Shown: piece by piece, positions 106 to 31,968 of the stretch
How the letters are laid out: every line of letters begins with the position of its first letter
How positions within the stretch are numbered: the first letter of the stretch is position 1
Assembly: GCA_023664365.1 (NCBI GenBank)
Contig: JAMPFR010000023.1
Location: forward strand, 1 to 45,196
Direction of reading: 5' to 3'
From: Acetatifactor muris
Lineage (GTDB): Bacteria > Bacillota > Clostridia > Lachnospirales > Lachnospiraceae
DNA: 45,196 nucleotides
Translations under genes and position numbers: made by a program
Notes under the pieces: generated by a model
Seen by the model: only the letters and a program-made list of their open reading frames with translations
Told to the model about the DNA's origin: nothing
Database searches by the model: none

Positions 106-150
106 CCCTTTACGGAGAATCCCTTTATGGAGAATCCCTTTACGGAGAAT
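106..150. repeat. Three tandem 15-bp repeats between rpsH and rplF
   Basis: Three head-to-tail copies of a 15-bp unit (ccctttacggagaat) occupy 106-120, 121-135 and 136-150, with a single C-to-T change in the middle copy. A diverged fourth copy may precede them. They lie in the untranslated gap upstream of the rplF ribosome binding site and directly beside the hairpin at 145-167. The unit is a multiple of three, so the plus strand stays open, but nothing suggests translation there. Confidence 0.85.
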
Positions 151-167
151 CTGCTTCGCAGATTCTC
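145..167 (-). other. Perfect 10-bp hairpin in rpsH-rplF gap
   Basis: GAGAATCTGC (145-154) and GCAGATTCTC (158-167) form a perfect 10-bp stem with a TTC loop (GAA in the minus-strand transcript). There is no T-tract, so it is not a classical terminator. It follows palindromic element A in transcript order. It could affect mRNA processing or set L6 expression relative to S8, but that is inference. Confidence 0.7.
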
Positions 168-171
168 TCAG

Positions 172-231
172 GGATGAAACATAGATTTTCTTGGGCGGCG
201 TCCTTCGACGCCTTAGAAAATCTTTTCATCC
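172..231 (-). repeat. Palindromic repeat element, copy A (after rpsH stop)
   Basis: In transcript (minus) orientation this 60-bp palindrome starts at the base after the rpsH TAA. It has an outer 8-bp helix (GGATGAAA with TTTCATCC), a 3-nt ATG bulge on the 3' side, a 9-bp helix (AGATTTTCT with AGAAAATCT), and an apical helix GGCGTC/GACGCC with a GAAG loop. The design matches copies B (29841-29907) and C (29994-30049). The 9-bp core differs from theirs by a compensated base-pair swap, and the outer helix is entirely different yet complementary. There is no terminal T-tract, and rplF follows in the operon. Confidence 0.8.
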
Positions 232-633
232 TTACCAGACGAACGCCAGAACTTCTCCGCCTACCTTCAGCTCTCTCGCCTTCTTATCGGTGATAACGCC
301 CTGGTTGGTGGAAAGAATTGCAATACCTAAGCCCCCCAGAACTCTGGGCAGCTCATCCTTGTTTGCATACACGCGAAGACCGGGCTTTGAAATCCTCTTG
401 ATACCGGAGATGATTTTCTCATTCTTGTCCGCACCGTACTTCAGGGTGATGTGGATTGTCTTGAAGCTGCCGTCCTCGGTAACATTGTATTTGCTTATAT
501 AGCCCTCGTCCAGAAGTATCTGTGCAATGGACATTTTCATCCTGGAAGCGGGCACGTCAACTGTATCATGCTTGGCAGTATTTGCATTACGGATTCTTGT
601 AAGCATATCTGCAATAGGATCACTCATTGTCAT
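232..633 (-). CDS. rpsH: 30S ribosomal protein S8 (uS8)
   Basis: S8 binds the central domain of 16S rRNA early in 30S assembly; in E. coli it is also the translational repressor of the spc operon. The 133-residue product has the family length, the N-terminus [17 protein letters not shown] and the conserved C-terminal motif [17 protein letters not shown] lies 10 nt before the first ATG. It sits between rpsN and rplF as usual. The stop codon abuts palindromic element A. If S8 controls this operon as in E. coli, the structure downstream would be worth testing, but its sequence alone does not show an S8 site. Confidence 0.98.
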
Positions 634-7483: not shown

Positions 7484-7777
7484 AAAAAAAGTCGCCTCCT
7501 TTTCGCACTTTCAGTCTCAAGTACGACAAGCGGTGACTGTACACTCTCCCGTGTGTGTCCTGACTCCTTACGCAACATTCTACGGACGTCCGGCCTATCA
7601 CACGTCGTTTCTGCCTGATGCAGACCTTTCAAAACCTTGTCCCTCTCCGGGAAACAAAAGCTTTTCTGTACAGTGACTTGTCGTCAGTTTTCTAACTTGA
7701 CATTCGCTCCACGGAAAACCTGCTTACCATTGCTGATAAACAGCAACCTCACGTTTCACAGCTATCATGCCACAGCA
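7484..7777 (-). promoter_or_regulatory. Long untranslated leader of the S10 operon
   Basis: About 290 nt lie between the predicted transcription start (near 7777) and rpsJ, with no convincing reading frame. The 8-nt segments at 7677-7684 and 7523-7530 are perfectly complementary (ACGACAAG/CTTGTCGT), and each is flanked by the self-complementary TGTACA, so they could close a domain of about 160 nt. Inside it lie a TCTGC/GCAGA hairpin (near 7612-7626) and the palindrome CGGACGTCCG (near 7585-7594). I see no strong terminator with a T-tract. A ribosomal-protein feedback leader is plausible but not shown. Confidence 0.5.
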
Positions 7778-28014: not shown

Positions 28015-29796
28015 TTACGCTATATCCTCCATCTGTGCCGTATACAGCCGGTAATAATATCCCCTCTTTGCCATCAGCTCCTCGTGGGTGCCGCACTCCA
28101 GGACGCCCCCCTGATCCACATACATAATCTTATCACAGTTCTTGATGGTGGAAAGCCTGTGGGCTATGATAAAGGAGGTACGCCCCTGCAGCATGGCGTT
28201 CAGCCCCTGCTGAAGGGCTCTTTCCGTCTGCACGTCAATGCTGGAGGTAGCCTCATCCAGCACCAGTATGGAAGGGTCGGAAAGCAGGGTTCTGGCAAAG
28301 GAAATCAACTGCTTCTGTCCCTGGGAGAGCAGAGAGCCCCGCTCCTTTACCTCCGTCTGATAGCCCTCCTGAAACCTGCGGATAAATTCGTCCGCACACA
28401 CCGTTTCGCTTGCCTTTACAATCTCCTCCGCAGCAGCGTCCAGCTTGCCGTAGCGGATATTGTCCTCAATGGTGCCCGAAAAGATAAAGCTGTCCTGCAG
28501 CATGATGCCCATCTGGGACCGCAGGGAATGCAGCGTCACCTTTGAAATATCCTGTCCGTCGATGAGAACCCGTCCGCCGTTCACATTGTAAAATCTGGAA
28601 ATCAGATTCACAATGGTACTCTTGCCCGCGCCGGTGGGTCCCACCAGCGCCACGCTTTCTCCGGGCTTTACGGTAAAGGACAGGTTGTTTAAGACCACTT
28701 TATCCGCCTCGTATCCGAAGGTCACGTTCTCGAAGGTCACTTCTCCTTTGATGGGCGGCATCTCCACTGCGTCCTCGGCGTCGTCCACCGTCACCGGCTC
28801 GTCCAGCGTCTCAAAGATACGCTCCAGATAGGCAATGTTGTTGATAAAATTGTTAAATATATTGCCCAGGTTCATAATGGGCTGCCAGAACCTGGAGGCG
28901 TAGGAGGATATAGCCACAATCACGCCCAGACTGGTGTTCCCCTGTCCGAAAACAATCAGACCGAAGATGAATATGGCCGCTCTGACCCAGACAGAGATAT
29001 TGTCAATCCCCGGCCACACCAGGTTGCTGTACTTTACCGCATTCATCCAGGCGCCCCTGCACCGATCGGACAGCAGTGCAAAGGTCTCCGCGTTTTCCTG
29101 CTCCCTGGCAAAAATCTGGGTAATCTTCGCTCCCACAATATTTTCCTGAAGATAGGCGTTCAGATTGGAATTCTTGTTGGAAACCTGCTGCCATGCCTTG
29201 CGCTGCCTGCGCTTTATCCAGAACAGGAACACCATGAGGACGGGAACGCCTGCCAGCACTACCAGGGAAAGCTTTACGTCCACACAGAACATAAACACCA
29301 CAATGAAAATCAGGTTCAGGATTTCCAGCACCACATTAATCAGCCCGTTGGAAAGCATATCGGAAACGGAATTCACATAGTTTACCACACGAATCAGTAT
29401 CTTGCCGTGAGGCCTGTCGTCATAATACTGGAAGGGCAGCTTCTGCAGATGGGCAAACAGATCCTTCCGGATATCGTATATAATGCTCTGGCTCACATTT
29501 ACCATAATGCGGGAGCGGACAGTGGTAAAAATCACACTGATTAAATAGGTAAAAATCAATATGCCCACCAGCATGAAAAGCATTTTCATATCCCTGTCCG
29601 GAATCGCCTCGTCCAGCGCCCGCTGGGTCAGCATGGGGCCGAACAGCGCCGTAATGCCGCCCACTGCGCTGAGCGCCAGAGCCAGTATCATTTTATTCAG
29701 ATATTTTTTAATATAAACGGAGGCCCGCAGCAGATGATGAAAGTCAAAGGGCGTCTCCAGCACTTCGTCTTCCCTGTATGTATTCCTTCTCGCCAT
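28015..29796 (-). CDS. ABC half-transporter, consensus-Walker B subunit
   Basis: The 593-residue protein has an exporter-type membrane domain of six helices (about 33-325) and a C-terminal ATPase. Walker A is GPTGAGKST (386-394), Walker B LVLDE with catalytic E515, and the switch histidine is H546. Its signature motif is altered to LSQGQ (490-494). This is the pattern of one half of a heterodimeric exporter, where this subunit's altered signature faces the partner's degenerate nucleotide site. It is preceded by GGGAGGAG, itself immediately after a GCCGC/GCGGC hairpin (29810-29824). The substrate is unknown. Confidence 0.93.
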   Translation of the reverse strand: MARRNTYREDEVLETPFDFHHLLRASVYIKKYLNKMILALALSAVGGITALFGPMLTQRALDEAIPDRDMKMLFMLVGILIFTYLISVIFTTVRSRIMVNVSQSIIYDIRKDLFAHLQKLPFQYYDDRPHGKILIRVVNYVNSVSDMLSNGLINVVLEILNLIFIVVFMFCVDVKLSLVVLAGVPVLMVFLFWIKRRQRKAWQQVSNKNSNLNAYLQENIVGAKITQIFAREQENAETFALLSDRCRGAWMNAVKYSNLVWPGIDNISVWVRAAIFIFGLIVFGQGNTSLGVIVAISSYASRFWQPIMNLGNIFNNFINNIAYLERIFETLDEPVTVDDAEDAVEMPPIKGEVTFENVTFGYEADKVVLNNLSFTVKPGESVALVGPTGAGKSTIVNLISRFYNVNGGRVLIDGQDISKVTLHSLRSQMGIMLQDSFIFSGTIEDNIRYGKLDAAAEEIVKASETVCADEFIRRFQEGYQTEVKERGSLLSQGQKQLISFARTLLSDPSILVLDEATSSIDVQTERALQQGLNAMLQGRTSFIIAHRLSTIKNCDKIMYVDQGGVLECGTHEELMAKRGYYYRLYTAQMEDIA

Positions 29797-29809: not shown

Positions 29810-29824
29810 GCCGCTTGATGCGGC
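29810..29824 (-). other. Small hairpin directly upstream of a ribosome binding site
   Basis: GCCGC (29810-29814) and GCGGC (29820-29824) pair around a 5-nt loop. In the transcript the stem ends exactly where the GGGAGGAG ribosome binding site of the ABC half-transporter gene begins. It is the last of six hairpins in this gap. Confidence 0.6.
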
Positions 29825-29840
29825 TCTCCTCTCCATAGGA

Positions 29841-29907
29841 AGTGTGAGAAGAATTTCTAATCGCTCACAGCATAGGCTGTTTCGCGAAGAAATTCTAATC
29901 TCACACT
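29841..29907. repeat. Palindromic repeat element, copy B
   Basis: This 67-bp palindrome has an outer 9-bp helix (AGTGTGAGA with TCTCACACT), a 9-bp core (AGAATTTCT with AGAAATTCT) and an apical part with TCGC/GCGA and ACAGC/GCTGT around an ATAG loop. On the plus strand the asymmetric bulge (AA) lies 3' of the core, whereas copies A and C show theirs on the minus strand, so B is inverted relative to them and to the ABC operon. The core equals that of copy C; outer and apical helices are different but complementary. Confidence 0.8.
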
Positions 29908-29934
29908 GAAGAATCGCAAGGAAAGCGATTCTTC
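29908..29934 (-). other. Perfect 10-bp hairpin adjoining copy B
   Basis: GAAGAATCGC (29908-29917) pairs perfectly with GCGATTCTTC (29925-29934) around a 7-nt loop. It abuts copy B with no spacer. There is no T-tract in either direction. Confidence 0.75.
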
Positions 29935-29949
29935 TCATTGATTGTTTGC

Positions 29950-29989
29950 GCCTGCCGTGCAGGCATGACTGGAATTGCCCTGGCAATTC
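29950..29989 (-). other. Two further hairpins between copies B and C
   Basis: GCCTGC/GCAGGC (29950-29955 with 29959-29964, 3-nt loop) and GAATTGCC/GGCAATTC (29972-29979 with 29982-29989, 2-nt loop) are both perfect stems. With the neighbouring elements they make almost the whole 29810-30049 interval self-complementary. Confidence 0.75.
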
Positions 29990-29993
29990 TTCC

Positions 29994-30049
29994 GGACGGG
30001 ACATAGAATTTCTTGGGCAGGTTCCCTGCCCTAGAAATTCTTCCCGTCC
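29994..30049 (-). repeat. Palindromic repeat element, copy C (overlaps a stop codon)
   Basis: In minus orientation this 56-bp element reads outer helix GGACGGGA/TCCCGTCC, core AGAATTTCT/AGAAATTCT, an A-A mismatch, apical helix GGGCAGG/CCTGCCC with a GAA loop, and the ATG bulge 3' of the core, as in copy A. The last residues and TAG stop of the upstream ABC half-transporter (30031-30033) are written in its left arm, so the element forms the C-terminus GKNF of that protein. Confidence 0.85.
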
Positions 30050-31902
30050 TCCTCTCCTGTCTGCAGCTTCACCAGACTGTAATAATAGCCCTTCTTCGCC
30101 ACCAGCTCCTCATGGGTGCCGCTCTCCGTGATGCGGCCGTCCTGAAGCACCAGTATTTTGTCCGCGGATTTGGTGGTGGAAATTCTCTGGGCAATGATAA
30201 TCTTGGTACAGGGAAAATCCAGTTCCTTCAGGCTGTGCTGTATCTGCTTTTCCGTCTCCATGTCCACCGCCGAGGTAGTGTCATCCAGAATCAGGATGGA
30301 GGGCCTTACCGCCAGGGCTCTTGCCAGAGAAATTCTCTGCTTCTGTCCCCCGGACAGTCCCACGCCCCGCTCGCCTACAATGGTATCATAGCCTTCGGGC
30401 ATCTTTGCAATAAAGTCCGACGCCGCCGAATATCTGGCAAACTTTACCACCTCCTCCGGCTTGATGTGAGTGTCTCCGTAGGCAATGTTGCCGTCAATGG
30501 TATCGGAGTACAGCAGCACATCCTGGGTGGCAAGGCCGATATTTTTTCTCAGCTGAGTCAGCTTCATGTCCTGCACATTGACGCCGTCCACCAGCACCTC
30601 ACCCTCCGTGGGCTCGTAAAACCGGGGAATCAGCTGGATCAGCGAGGTCTTGCCGCAGCCTGTCTCCCCCATAATTGCCACCGTCTCGCCGGGAGATACG
30701 GTAAAGGATACGTTATGAAGCACCGGCAGATTGCCGTCTGCATACTGAAAGCTGACGTTTTTGAATTCCACCCTGCCTTCAAAGCGCTCCGGTCTGTCGA
30801 TGGCGTCAGGTTTATCCACAATCTCCGGTTCGGAATAATAGATTTCCATCACCTTATCCGCCGCCGCAGAAAAGCGCTGAAATTCATTCATAATATTTCC
30901 CAGCTGACGCATGGGATTTGCAATGGCCCATATCAGGCCGGAAAACGCCACATACTCTCCCATGGTAAGCTGACCGCCTATGATGAAGACGCCCCCCACT
31001 GCCAGCAGCACCACCGGCATCAGGTTCGCAAAGGACTCCACATAAGGGTAATAAGCCAGCCAGGTCATGGCCGTCCGCTTGTTGGTGCGGGCGTACTCCG
31101 TGTTGCAGCGGTCAAACCGCTCCATTTCATAGTCTTCCCTTGCAAATGCCTTTACCACACGGTTTCCTGAAATATTTTCCTGGGCTGCCGTATTCATCTG
31201 AGCCAGCTTCTCCCGCAGCGCCTTATGTCTGGGCGCCACCTTATTTTTAAATAAGATGATAATCAGGAAAATAAAGGGTGAAATAGCCAGCAGACAGAGG
31301 GCCAGCCGCCAGTCCATGTACAGGAAATAGACCGCCGTGGCGCAGACAAGGGCAAGGGACTCCGTGATCGTGCGCAGAACCCATGCAATCATATGCCGCA
31401 CCGCATCCAGATCGCCCGTAAGCCGGGTCATCAAATCCCCCGTCCTGAAGGTACTGTAAAACTTCATATCCTGACGCTCTATCTTTTCAAAAAGATAATT
31501 TCGGATGCGATAAAGCGCTTTCTGCGACACATGCTCCACACTCATGCAGGTCAGGTAGACAATCAGTGTCCTTAAGAAGGTCAGCGCCACCATGGCGATA
31601 ATCAACTGGTAAAACAGTGTGCGCCTGTTTACCAGATTCGCCGCCGCATCGTCCCCGGTCAGGAACAAATCAATCAGGTTCTGGGTGGCATAAGGAACTA
31701 TCAGCTGCATCACACTGTAAACCATGGTCCCCAGAAGCCCGACAATGTACAGGACTCTGTAGCCCTTCATGTTTTCCCAAAGCCATCCCATTTTTGATTT
31801 CTGTTTCTTTTTCACGTTTTCTCCCATCTGTGTCCCGTCCCTCTTAAAATCCGGCGGACCTTCAAGCAGCCTCCGCCGCTTTTTCCGCGTTTTGTCCTTC
31901 AT
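30031..31902 (-). CDS. ABC half-transporter, degenerate-site subunit
   Basis: This is the partner of the next ABC gene. It has a basic N-terminus, six membrane helices and an ATPase with Walker A GETGCGKTS and an intact LSGGQ signature. Walker B is ILILDD, with Asp replacing the catalytic Glu, and the switch position reads IAQRIST, with Gln replacing His. Both changes mark the degenerate site of heterodimeric exporters such as TM287/288, and complement the LSQGQ of the partner. The start is uncertain: ATG at 31902 (623 residues) or 31827 (598 residues). The C-terminal end is encoded by palindromic element C. Confidence 0.92.
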   Translation of the reverse strand: MKDKTRKKRRRLLEGPPDFKRDGTQMGENVKKKQKSKMGWLWENMKGYRVLYIVGLLGTMVYSVMQLIVPYATQNLIDLFLTGDDAAANLVNRRTLFYQLIIAMVALTFLRTLIVYLTCMSVEHVSQKALYRIRNYLFEKIERQDMKFYSTFRTGDLMTRLTGDLDAVRHMIAWVLRTITESLALVCATAVYFLYMDWRLALCLLAISPFIFLIIILFKNKVAPRHKALREKLAQMNTAAQENISGNRVVKAFAREDYEMERFDRCNTEYARTNKRTAMTWLAYYPYVESFANLMPVVLLAVGGVFIIGGQLTMGEYVAFSGLIWAIANPMRQLGNIMNEFQRFSAAADKVMEIYYSEPEIVDKPDAIDRPERFEGRVEFKNVSFQYADGNLPVLHNVSFTVSPGETVAIMGETGCGKTSLIQLIPRFYEPTEGEVLVDGVNVQDMKLTQLRKNIGLATQDVLLYSDTIDGNIAYGDTHIKPEEVVKFARYSAASDFIAKMPEGYDTIVGERGVGLSGGQKQRISLARALAVRPSILILDDTTSAVDMETEKQIQHSLKELDFPCTKIIIAQRISTTKSADKILVLQDGRITESGTHEELVAKKGYYYSLVKLQTGEEDGKNF

Positions 31903-31968
31903 TCTAGCCCTGTTGGGAAAGGGTGTAAATGTAGAAAATTGCAGTTTCCATGTTTTATTTTGCAATGG

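Follow-up and report, generated by a model that had tools for sequence, protein, structure and literature searches.

There is good reason to think that the long palindromes of the window (the whole stretch of 45,196 nucleotides of Acetatifactor muris DNA analysed here) are copies of a dispersed, modular palindromic DNA repeat of the Lachnospiraceae, one that probably spreads non-autonomously and has its stems rewritten in DNA. Many copies occur, near-identical ones lie at unrelated sites, one insert of the window is absent from the orthologous site in a relative, and most copies sit in sense where the upstream gene has its stop codon. A repeat family, without earlier description in the literature searched and with dozens of copies in some genomes, is thereby added to a major gut family of bacteria; the search, in which few subscription journals were covered, found no description of this Acetatifactor/Lachnospiraceae repeat. 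It also becomes testable why palindromic repeats collect at stop codons, and whether they alter termination or mRNA ends.

Architecture of the repeat and its copies in one genome

The first copy in the window, copy A, lies on the minus strand directly behind rpsH:

232–633, minus strand: rpsH, 30S ribosomal protein S8 (by NCBIfam), upstream of copy A, stop codon TAA at 232–234
172–231, minus strand (sense of rpsH): copy A, long hairpin (covariance model R1 74.5 bits, E 3.9e-12; core pattern; folding)
224–231/172–179: outer helix of copy A, GGATGAAA at 172–179 and TTTCATCC at 224–231
180–182: 3-nt bulge, CAT
215–223/183–191: core of copy A, AGATTTTCT at 183–191 and core arm AGAAAATCT at 215–223, with the apical hairpin between
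145–167, minus strand: second hairpin of copy A (module B), arms 158–167 and 145–154, by direct reading
97–155: 15-nt tandem repeats around CCCTTTAYGGAGAAT (family D2, copies at 97, 112 and 127), adjoining module B of copy A

In minus-strand order copy A reads TAA stop, GGATGAAA, AGATTTTCT, apical hairpin, AGAAAATCT, bulge ATG and TTTCATCC, and with the rpsH stop at 232–234 the palindrome begins at the very next base, as an earlier note on this DNA had claimed; this placement turns out to be typical of the family. In relatives the gene after rpsH is that for L6 (locus L256). The three 15-nt tandem copies at 97–155 are similar to half of copy A's second hairpin.

Copies B and C lie together between two genes on the minus strand:

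30031–31965, minus strand: gene upstream of copy C, of ABC transporter permease/ATPase type (NCBIfam ABC matches, none above cut-off among the matches listed), its tail DGKNF encoded within the element
29994–30049, minus strand: copy C, long hairpin (R1 68.8 bits), which gives the upstream gene its stop codon (TAG)
29972–29989, minus strand: module B hairpin of copy C (GAATTGCC/GGCAATTC), by direct reading
29944–29972, plus strand: module C of copy B (GTTTGCGCC hairpin ... GGCATGACTGG), by direct reading and matches in relatives
29908–29934, plus strand: module B hairpin of copy B (GAAGAATCGC...GCGATTCTTC), by direct reading
29841–29907, plus strand: copy B, long hairpin (R1 51.6 bits on the plus strand), antisense to the flanking genes
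28015–29796, minus strand: gene downstream of copies C and B, of ABC transporter permease/ATPase type (NCBIfam ABC models, again none above cut-off among the matches listed)

Pieces of 29838–29977 have many matches in relatives, at 72–100% identity. Copies A, B and C have in common an 8-bp outer helix, a 3-nt one-sided bulge, a 9-bp core and an apical hairpin, in the same order; the shared design that the earlier note described is thus borne out, as are the distinct letters of the outer helix in each copy, and the compensated core swap that it saw in copy A is real. That these are chance inverted repeats has next to no probability, given that folding of all six strands gave z of −5.7 to −8.5 with none of 200 dinucleotide shuffles as good, and that the exact core pattern occurs at 24 places in the genome while its reversed control occurs at none.

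A covariance-model search had been suggested in the earlier note, and it returned many copies both here and in relatives, not merely three. The model was built from 19 copies of the genome's own (alignment A1, 19 rows) and finds 46 places in that genome at E up to 1, of which 38 have E of 0.01 or less and eight lie between 0.01 and 1; the 46 are what remains of 69 matches after 20 opposite-strand duplicates and three more matches (two further places in the C83 array) are removed. In sense, the repeat unit opens with the long hairpin (8-bp outer helix, 3-nt one-sided bulge, 9-bp core, A.A mismatch and apical hairpin) and is usually larger than this hairpin alone: a second hairpin (perfect arm of at least 7, within 14 nt), often GGAAGAAT...ATTCTTCC, accompanies 33 of the 46 copies, and a third module around GTTTGTGCC (GTTTGTG-type, within 260 nt) accompanies 18. 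The core helix, like the outer one, varies between copies, and by eye a further hairpin replaces the bulge to form a three-way junction in L007, L016, L017, L020 and probably L018. Most copies, across genera, keep the same letters in the bulge (AAG/ATG), at the A.A mismatch and in the loop (about RRAGNAC). The third module also stands alone at a stop codon (L071), and copies of the repeat occur in tandem; at L320 in genome G088 a tandem array of the element, with a unit of about 91 bp, follows the end of one gene.

Spread and position at stop codons

The reading as a mobile repeat is supported by the many copies, by identical copies at unrelated sites, by tandem copies, by an empty site and by a patchy distribution. 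Identical long hairpins of 60 nt or more are preceded by differing 50-nt upstream flanks in five copies of genome G414 and six of G390. The empty site concerns copies B and C:

29810–30049: stretch absent from the close relative G036, with the B + C insert bordered on each side by the 9-nt direct repeat GGAGAGGAG

Around this site G036 is 87–89% identical, its upstream gene ends in GEE-stop and the next gene follows directly, whereas in the window the upstream gene runs into the element and acquires the tail DGKNF, and GGAGAGGAG flanks the insert. The B + C insert is absent also from G050 and G048, and by eye G053 carries another insert; the site of L011 offers no clean empty site in G036. Flank matches of at least 8 nt were found for 17 of 99 copies against about 9.8 in permuted pairs, with copies B and C sharing one, so target-site duplication is in mild excess and does not appear to be general.

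The window's genus is that of A. muris, since L078 in G041, one of its genomes, and the A. muris record L209 agree fully across 700 nt. Matches at E up to 0.01 occur in 41 of the 61 genomes of the genus, and the number per genome ranges from 0 to at least 86 with both strands counted. At E up to 1e-4 at least 28 of 397 genomes of the family have matches (own genome included), and in the order 11 of 295 do (own included), two of them from another family. A scan with the named pattern gave 56 loci; those titles that name a group point to the Lachnospiraceae and the others say bacterium, Clostridia or Bacillota. The groups named are Acetatifactor muris, Parablautia, metagenome-assembled genomes labelled Lachnoclostridium, Blautia and Clostridium symbiosum, which we take to be members of the Lachnospiraceae. 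No sign of carriage by viruses or plasmids emerged with the queries used: one exact pattern had no match among viral contigs, and copy B had none among plasmids and phages. Two further copies of the genome's own lie on contig C146, before rpsM (S13) and after rpsK (S11) (L159, 5281–6351), and copies with the same upstream letters are found in other species (L082, L094, L100 and L102).

Being palindromic, extragenic, present in many copies and near stop codons, the repeat resembles true REP elements mobilised by a RAYT (Y1 HUH) transposase. The search for spread machinery covered the Y1_Tnp profile (PF01797) only, and this profile had no match in the genome itself (G000, 98% complete), nor in G036 (82% complete), G050 or G053, each with 45–48 R1 matches. 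In G044 the profile matches a stop-containing fragment over 47 of its positions, and of the 20 genus genomes (among 61) with a Y1_Tnp match, 10 are without an R1 match. A Y1/RAYT partner was therefore rejected, and mobilisation as true REP elements is very improbable. The likeness to REP and BIME sequences extends to extragenic palindromes of which some lie close behind stop codons, but the repeat differs from them in its longer hairpin with bulge and core, in its strong sense orientation and in stems of different letters within one genome, as well as in the missing Y1/RAYT match in its own genome. Passages of PMC3733652 give a GTAG or CGTC tag at the foot of REP hairpins.

The placement of the repeat at gene ends is strongly oriented. 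Counting ORFs of 100 aa or longer, 81 of 134 copies (the 154 minus 20 too near a locus end) have a sense stop within −30 to +15 nt, a number that falls to 2 of 134 when the orientation is mirrored; of 2320 non-coding positions drawn at random, each with a random strand, 259 have one. Recounted without rpsH copies, that is, without the 15 of the 154 in loci fetched by rpsH and seven more rpsH copies, the figures are 71 of 116, 2 of 116 and 226 of 1960. By a simple ORF caller, the nearest upstream ORF is on the same strand for 42 of 45 copies in the genome itself and for 53 of 64 elsewhere. At 97 of 108 places a sense ORF (at least 30 aa, some of these ORFs surely not genes) ends between −45 and +60 nt of the model start, with the commonest stops ending 2–5, 10 and 23 nt into the model; where a stop ends 10 or 23 nt into it, the element itself supplies the stop. 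At L001, L012, L015, L023, L055 and 30031–30049 of the window the protein ends in KIF or KNF, residues that the element encodes. Copy B, antisense to its neighbours, is an exception to the sense orientation.

Stable hairpins at stop codons might be taken for intrinsic transcription terminators of the upstream genes. At least four T in a row within 12 nt follow the long hairpin in just 3 of the 46 own copies, however, and the second hairpin in 1 of 46, a terminator scan at copy A found nothing, and copy A sits within the rpsH–rplF pair. Intrinsic terminators were rejected on the rarity of T runs and the empty scan, and this explanation is extremely improbable.

In packed operons the end of the upstream gene would be the main place where insertion is tolerated, since stop codons come with the element and the ribosome-binding site of the next gene is left in place; the stop-codon position may thus be due in part to tolerance, this end being among the few sites that spare both genes. 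If transcribed, the element is predicted to fold right at the stop codon. By analogy with what is reported for Escherichia coli REPs, the fold may get in the way of ribosomes at termination or shield the end of the upstream mRNA; PMC12306157 cites an earlier study according to which ribosome stalling was possible at nearly half of the E. coli REPs, and itself counts 446 of 4,072 REPs that lie no more than 15 nt from a stop.

By the same kind of analogy the repeat may work like REP or BOX elements. According to PMC3049150, BOX of Streptococcus pneumoniae is modular (boxA/B/C), interspersed and predicted to form stem-loops when transcribed, and it often provides the stop codon of a gene whose extreme 3′ end it forms, as in 36 of the 58 CDSs that it overlaps. 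The repeat described here is likewise a composite of several hairpin modules, with the second hairpin and third module at the frequencies given above. It belongs to another organism, however, and its stems vary freely under one design; the likeness is one of description, not of sequence comparison. The same paper gives BOX terminal inverted repeats like those of ISSpn2, whereas none were recognised in the repeat here.

MITEs, RUP, ERIC and RU are short, non-coding, dispersed, palindromic small mobile sequences, and the repeat shares each of these properties. It may depart from them in its unit ends, which by eye and with provisional boundaries look like direct repeats (AGTGTGA) rather than inverted repeats, and in that target-site duplication does not appear to be general.

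Covariation and the upkeep of the stems

The covariation for which the earlier note had proposed a test is strong. Measured by pair counts against shuffles, 92.9% of cells pair in the 19 own copies compared with 76.8% when shuffled, both members change in 15 of the pairs, and covariation scores 0.439 compared with 0.150; the rows of the alignment were picked by the core pattern, so that invariant core pairs are partly due to construction. Of 500 shuffles, 30 had at least as many further pair types, and 0 or 1 matched the alignment on the other covariation measures. Across 154 distinct copies the 5′ outer arm occurs in 77 versions and the core arm in 34, strings with gaps being counted.

Selection on a transcribed strand should spare G.U and remove A.C. 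In distinct helices the two are equally rare (G.U 33, A.C 36; helices with gaps or more than two non-Watson–Crick pairs, 8, 1 and 5, left out), and the 154 distinct copies hold 63 G.U and 58 A.C. A first count on 64 matches leaned to G.U, 25 versus 11, a lean that vanished with 154 copies and with distinct helices, while the outer helices alone lean to G.U at 25 versus 13 (p 0.07). Covariance models can be expected to score G.U favourably, so the retrieval step should not have masked such pairs. In tRNAs of the same loci G.U numbered 10 and A.C 0 in 98 pairs, a weak control in which 9 of 20 tRNAs were usable and the filter counts G.U as a pair (20 distinct tRNAs up to 93 nt, 11 dropped because fixed acceptor offsets did not fit them; one longer record was also dropped).

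With G.U as rare as A.C, we infer that pairing is kept up in DNA. Despite its strength, the covariation is poor evidence for selection on RNA, and of the two readings that the earlier note offered, spread as a palindromic mobile repeat has held up, while the covariation does not establish selection for the fold. Strong covariation across dispersed copies thus need not mean a functional RNA, and counting G.U against A.C offers a simple check in dispersed repeats.

A structured cis-acting RNA at gene ends would predict a different history, in which the fold is selected, the stems change by ordinary compensatory mutation, and the transcribed structure affects termination, the release of ribosomes or the stability of mRNA. 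The sense orientation, the stop-codon position, the conserved letters of bulge, mismatch and loop and the strong covariation would all fit such an element, but the parity of G.U and A.C, both in distinct helices and in the 154 copies, and the identical copies at unrelated genes speak against it, as does the Rfam comparison. In the window no match to the repeat reached a gathering score, and in seven loci searched at E up to 1 the six matches (one Cyano-1, five microRNA models) were all below theirs; a known Rfam family was rejected on these searches. We consider a selected cis-RNA unlikely, while a constraint at the RNA level is possible in view of the orientation, the stop-codon position and the conserved bulge and loop letters. 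The sole Rfam match at gathering score in the window is an S10-Clostridia ribosomal leader RNA at 7678–7767 (RF03136, 89.7 bits).

The reading preferred here, a DNA repeat with rewritten stems, would have the element spread non-autonomously and its palindrome rewritten in DNA, by template switching or arm-to-arm correction, such that the arms stay complementary while their letters change; selection for an RNA fold would then not be the main keeper of arm complementarity. According to PMC8794818, template switching in replication can copy several changes in one step to the opposite arm, and the hairpins described there, like the repeat, carry multi-base changes mirrored on both arms. Those hairpins are of RNA genes and were followed by ancestral reconstruction, whereas the repeat is read from present-day copies. 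A more specific version, in which mobile palindromes direct their spread to stop codons in sense, their stems are continually rewritten by template switching and covariation, both inside one genome and among orthologous sites, arises without RNA-fold selection, is tentative and has a minority chance of being right. The constant letters of bulge, mismatch and loop, for which template switching alone does not account, suggest recognition of the hairpin, as DNA or as RNA, and hint that a protein is what recognises it.

Turnover at the rpsH–rplF junction

Readable rpsH–rplF spacers came from 43 genomes (13 + 30 loci from two locus sets, the other 14 loci of the first set lying outside the genus; seven genomes with an rpsH match returned no locus and hence no spacer). 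By eye, the element is present in 20 of the 43 and a different structured insert in seven. Three of the 20 are decayed, with one of these (G042) a doubtful case, and of the 16 spacers that have neither, three carry other inserts. Outside the genus, 10 of the 14 loci have a readable spacer, of 18–91 nt, in which no element was seen. The outer arms at this junction include GGATGAAA, GGGTGAAA, GAGCAAAA, GGACGAAA, AAGCGAAA and GACCAAA, mostly complementary.

That one junction should carry different but complementary stems in several species is what a selected cis-RNA might be expected to leave, but its presence is patchy: on a tree of rpsH and rplF DNA, with 18 of 40 inner branches unresolved, at least 12 changes are required to explain where the element occurs, and seven for the other insert. 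The junction is a hot spot of fast turnover, at which inheritance and new insertion are indistinguishable for most species. Occupation of several junctions in several species (rpsH–rplF, before rpsM) is not required of a neutral repeat and counts against the reading preferred here.

The different structured insert lies directly after rpsH and reads AAATCAAGCACGAGCGAAGCG...TTTGATTT, then GACATCGAGAAAAC...GTTTTCGAGATGG; it is present at L108, L112, L256, L259, L275, L277 and L281 and is possibly a separate cis-element. A 25-nt pattern from its hairpin, with up to two mismatches, has one match each in four of the 61 genomes, three of these at rpsH–rplF and one (L328) upstream of another gene, presumably a glutamate synthase.
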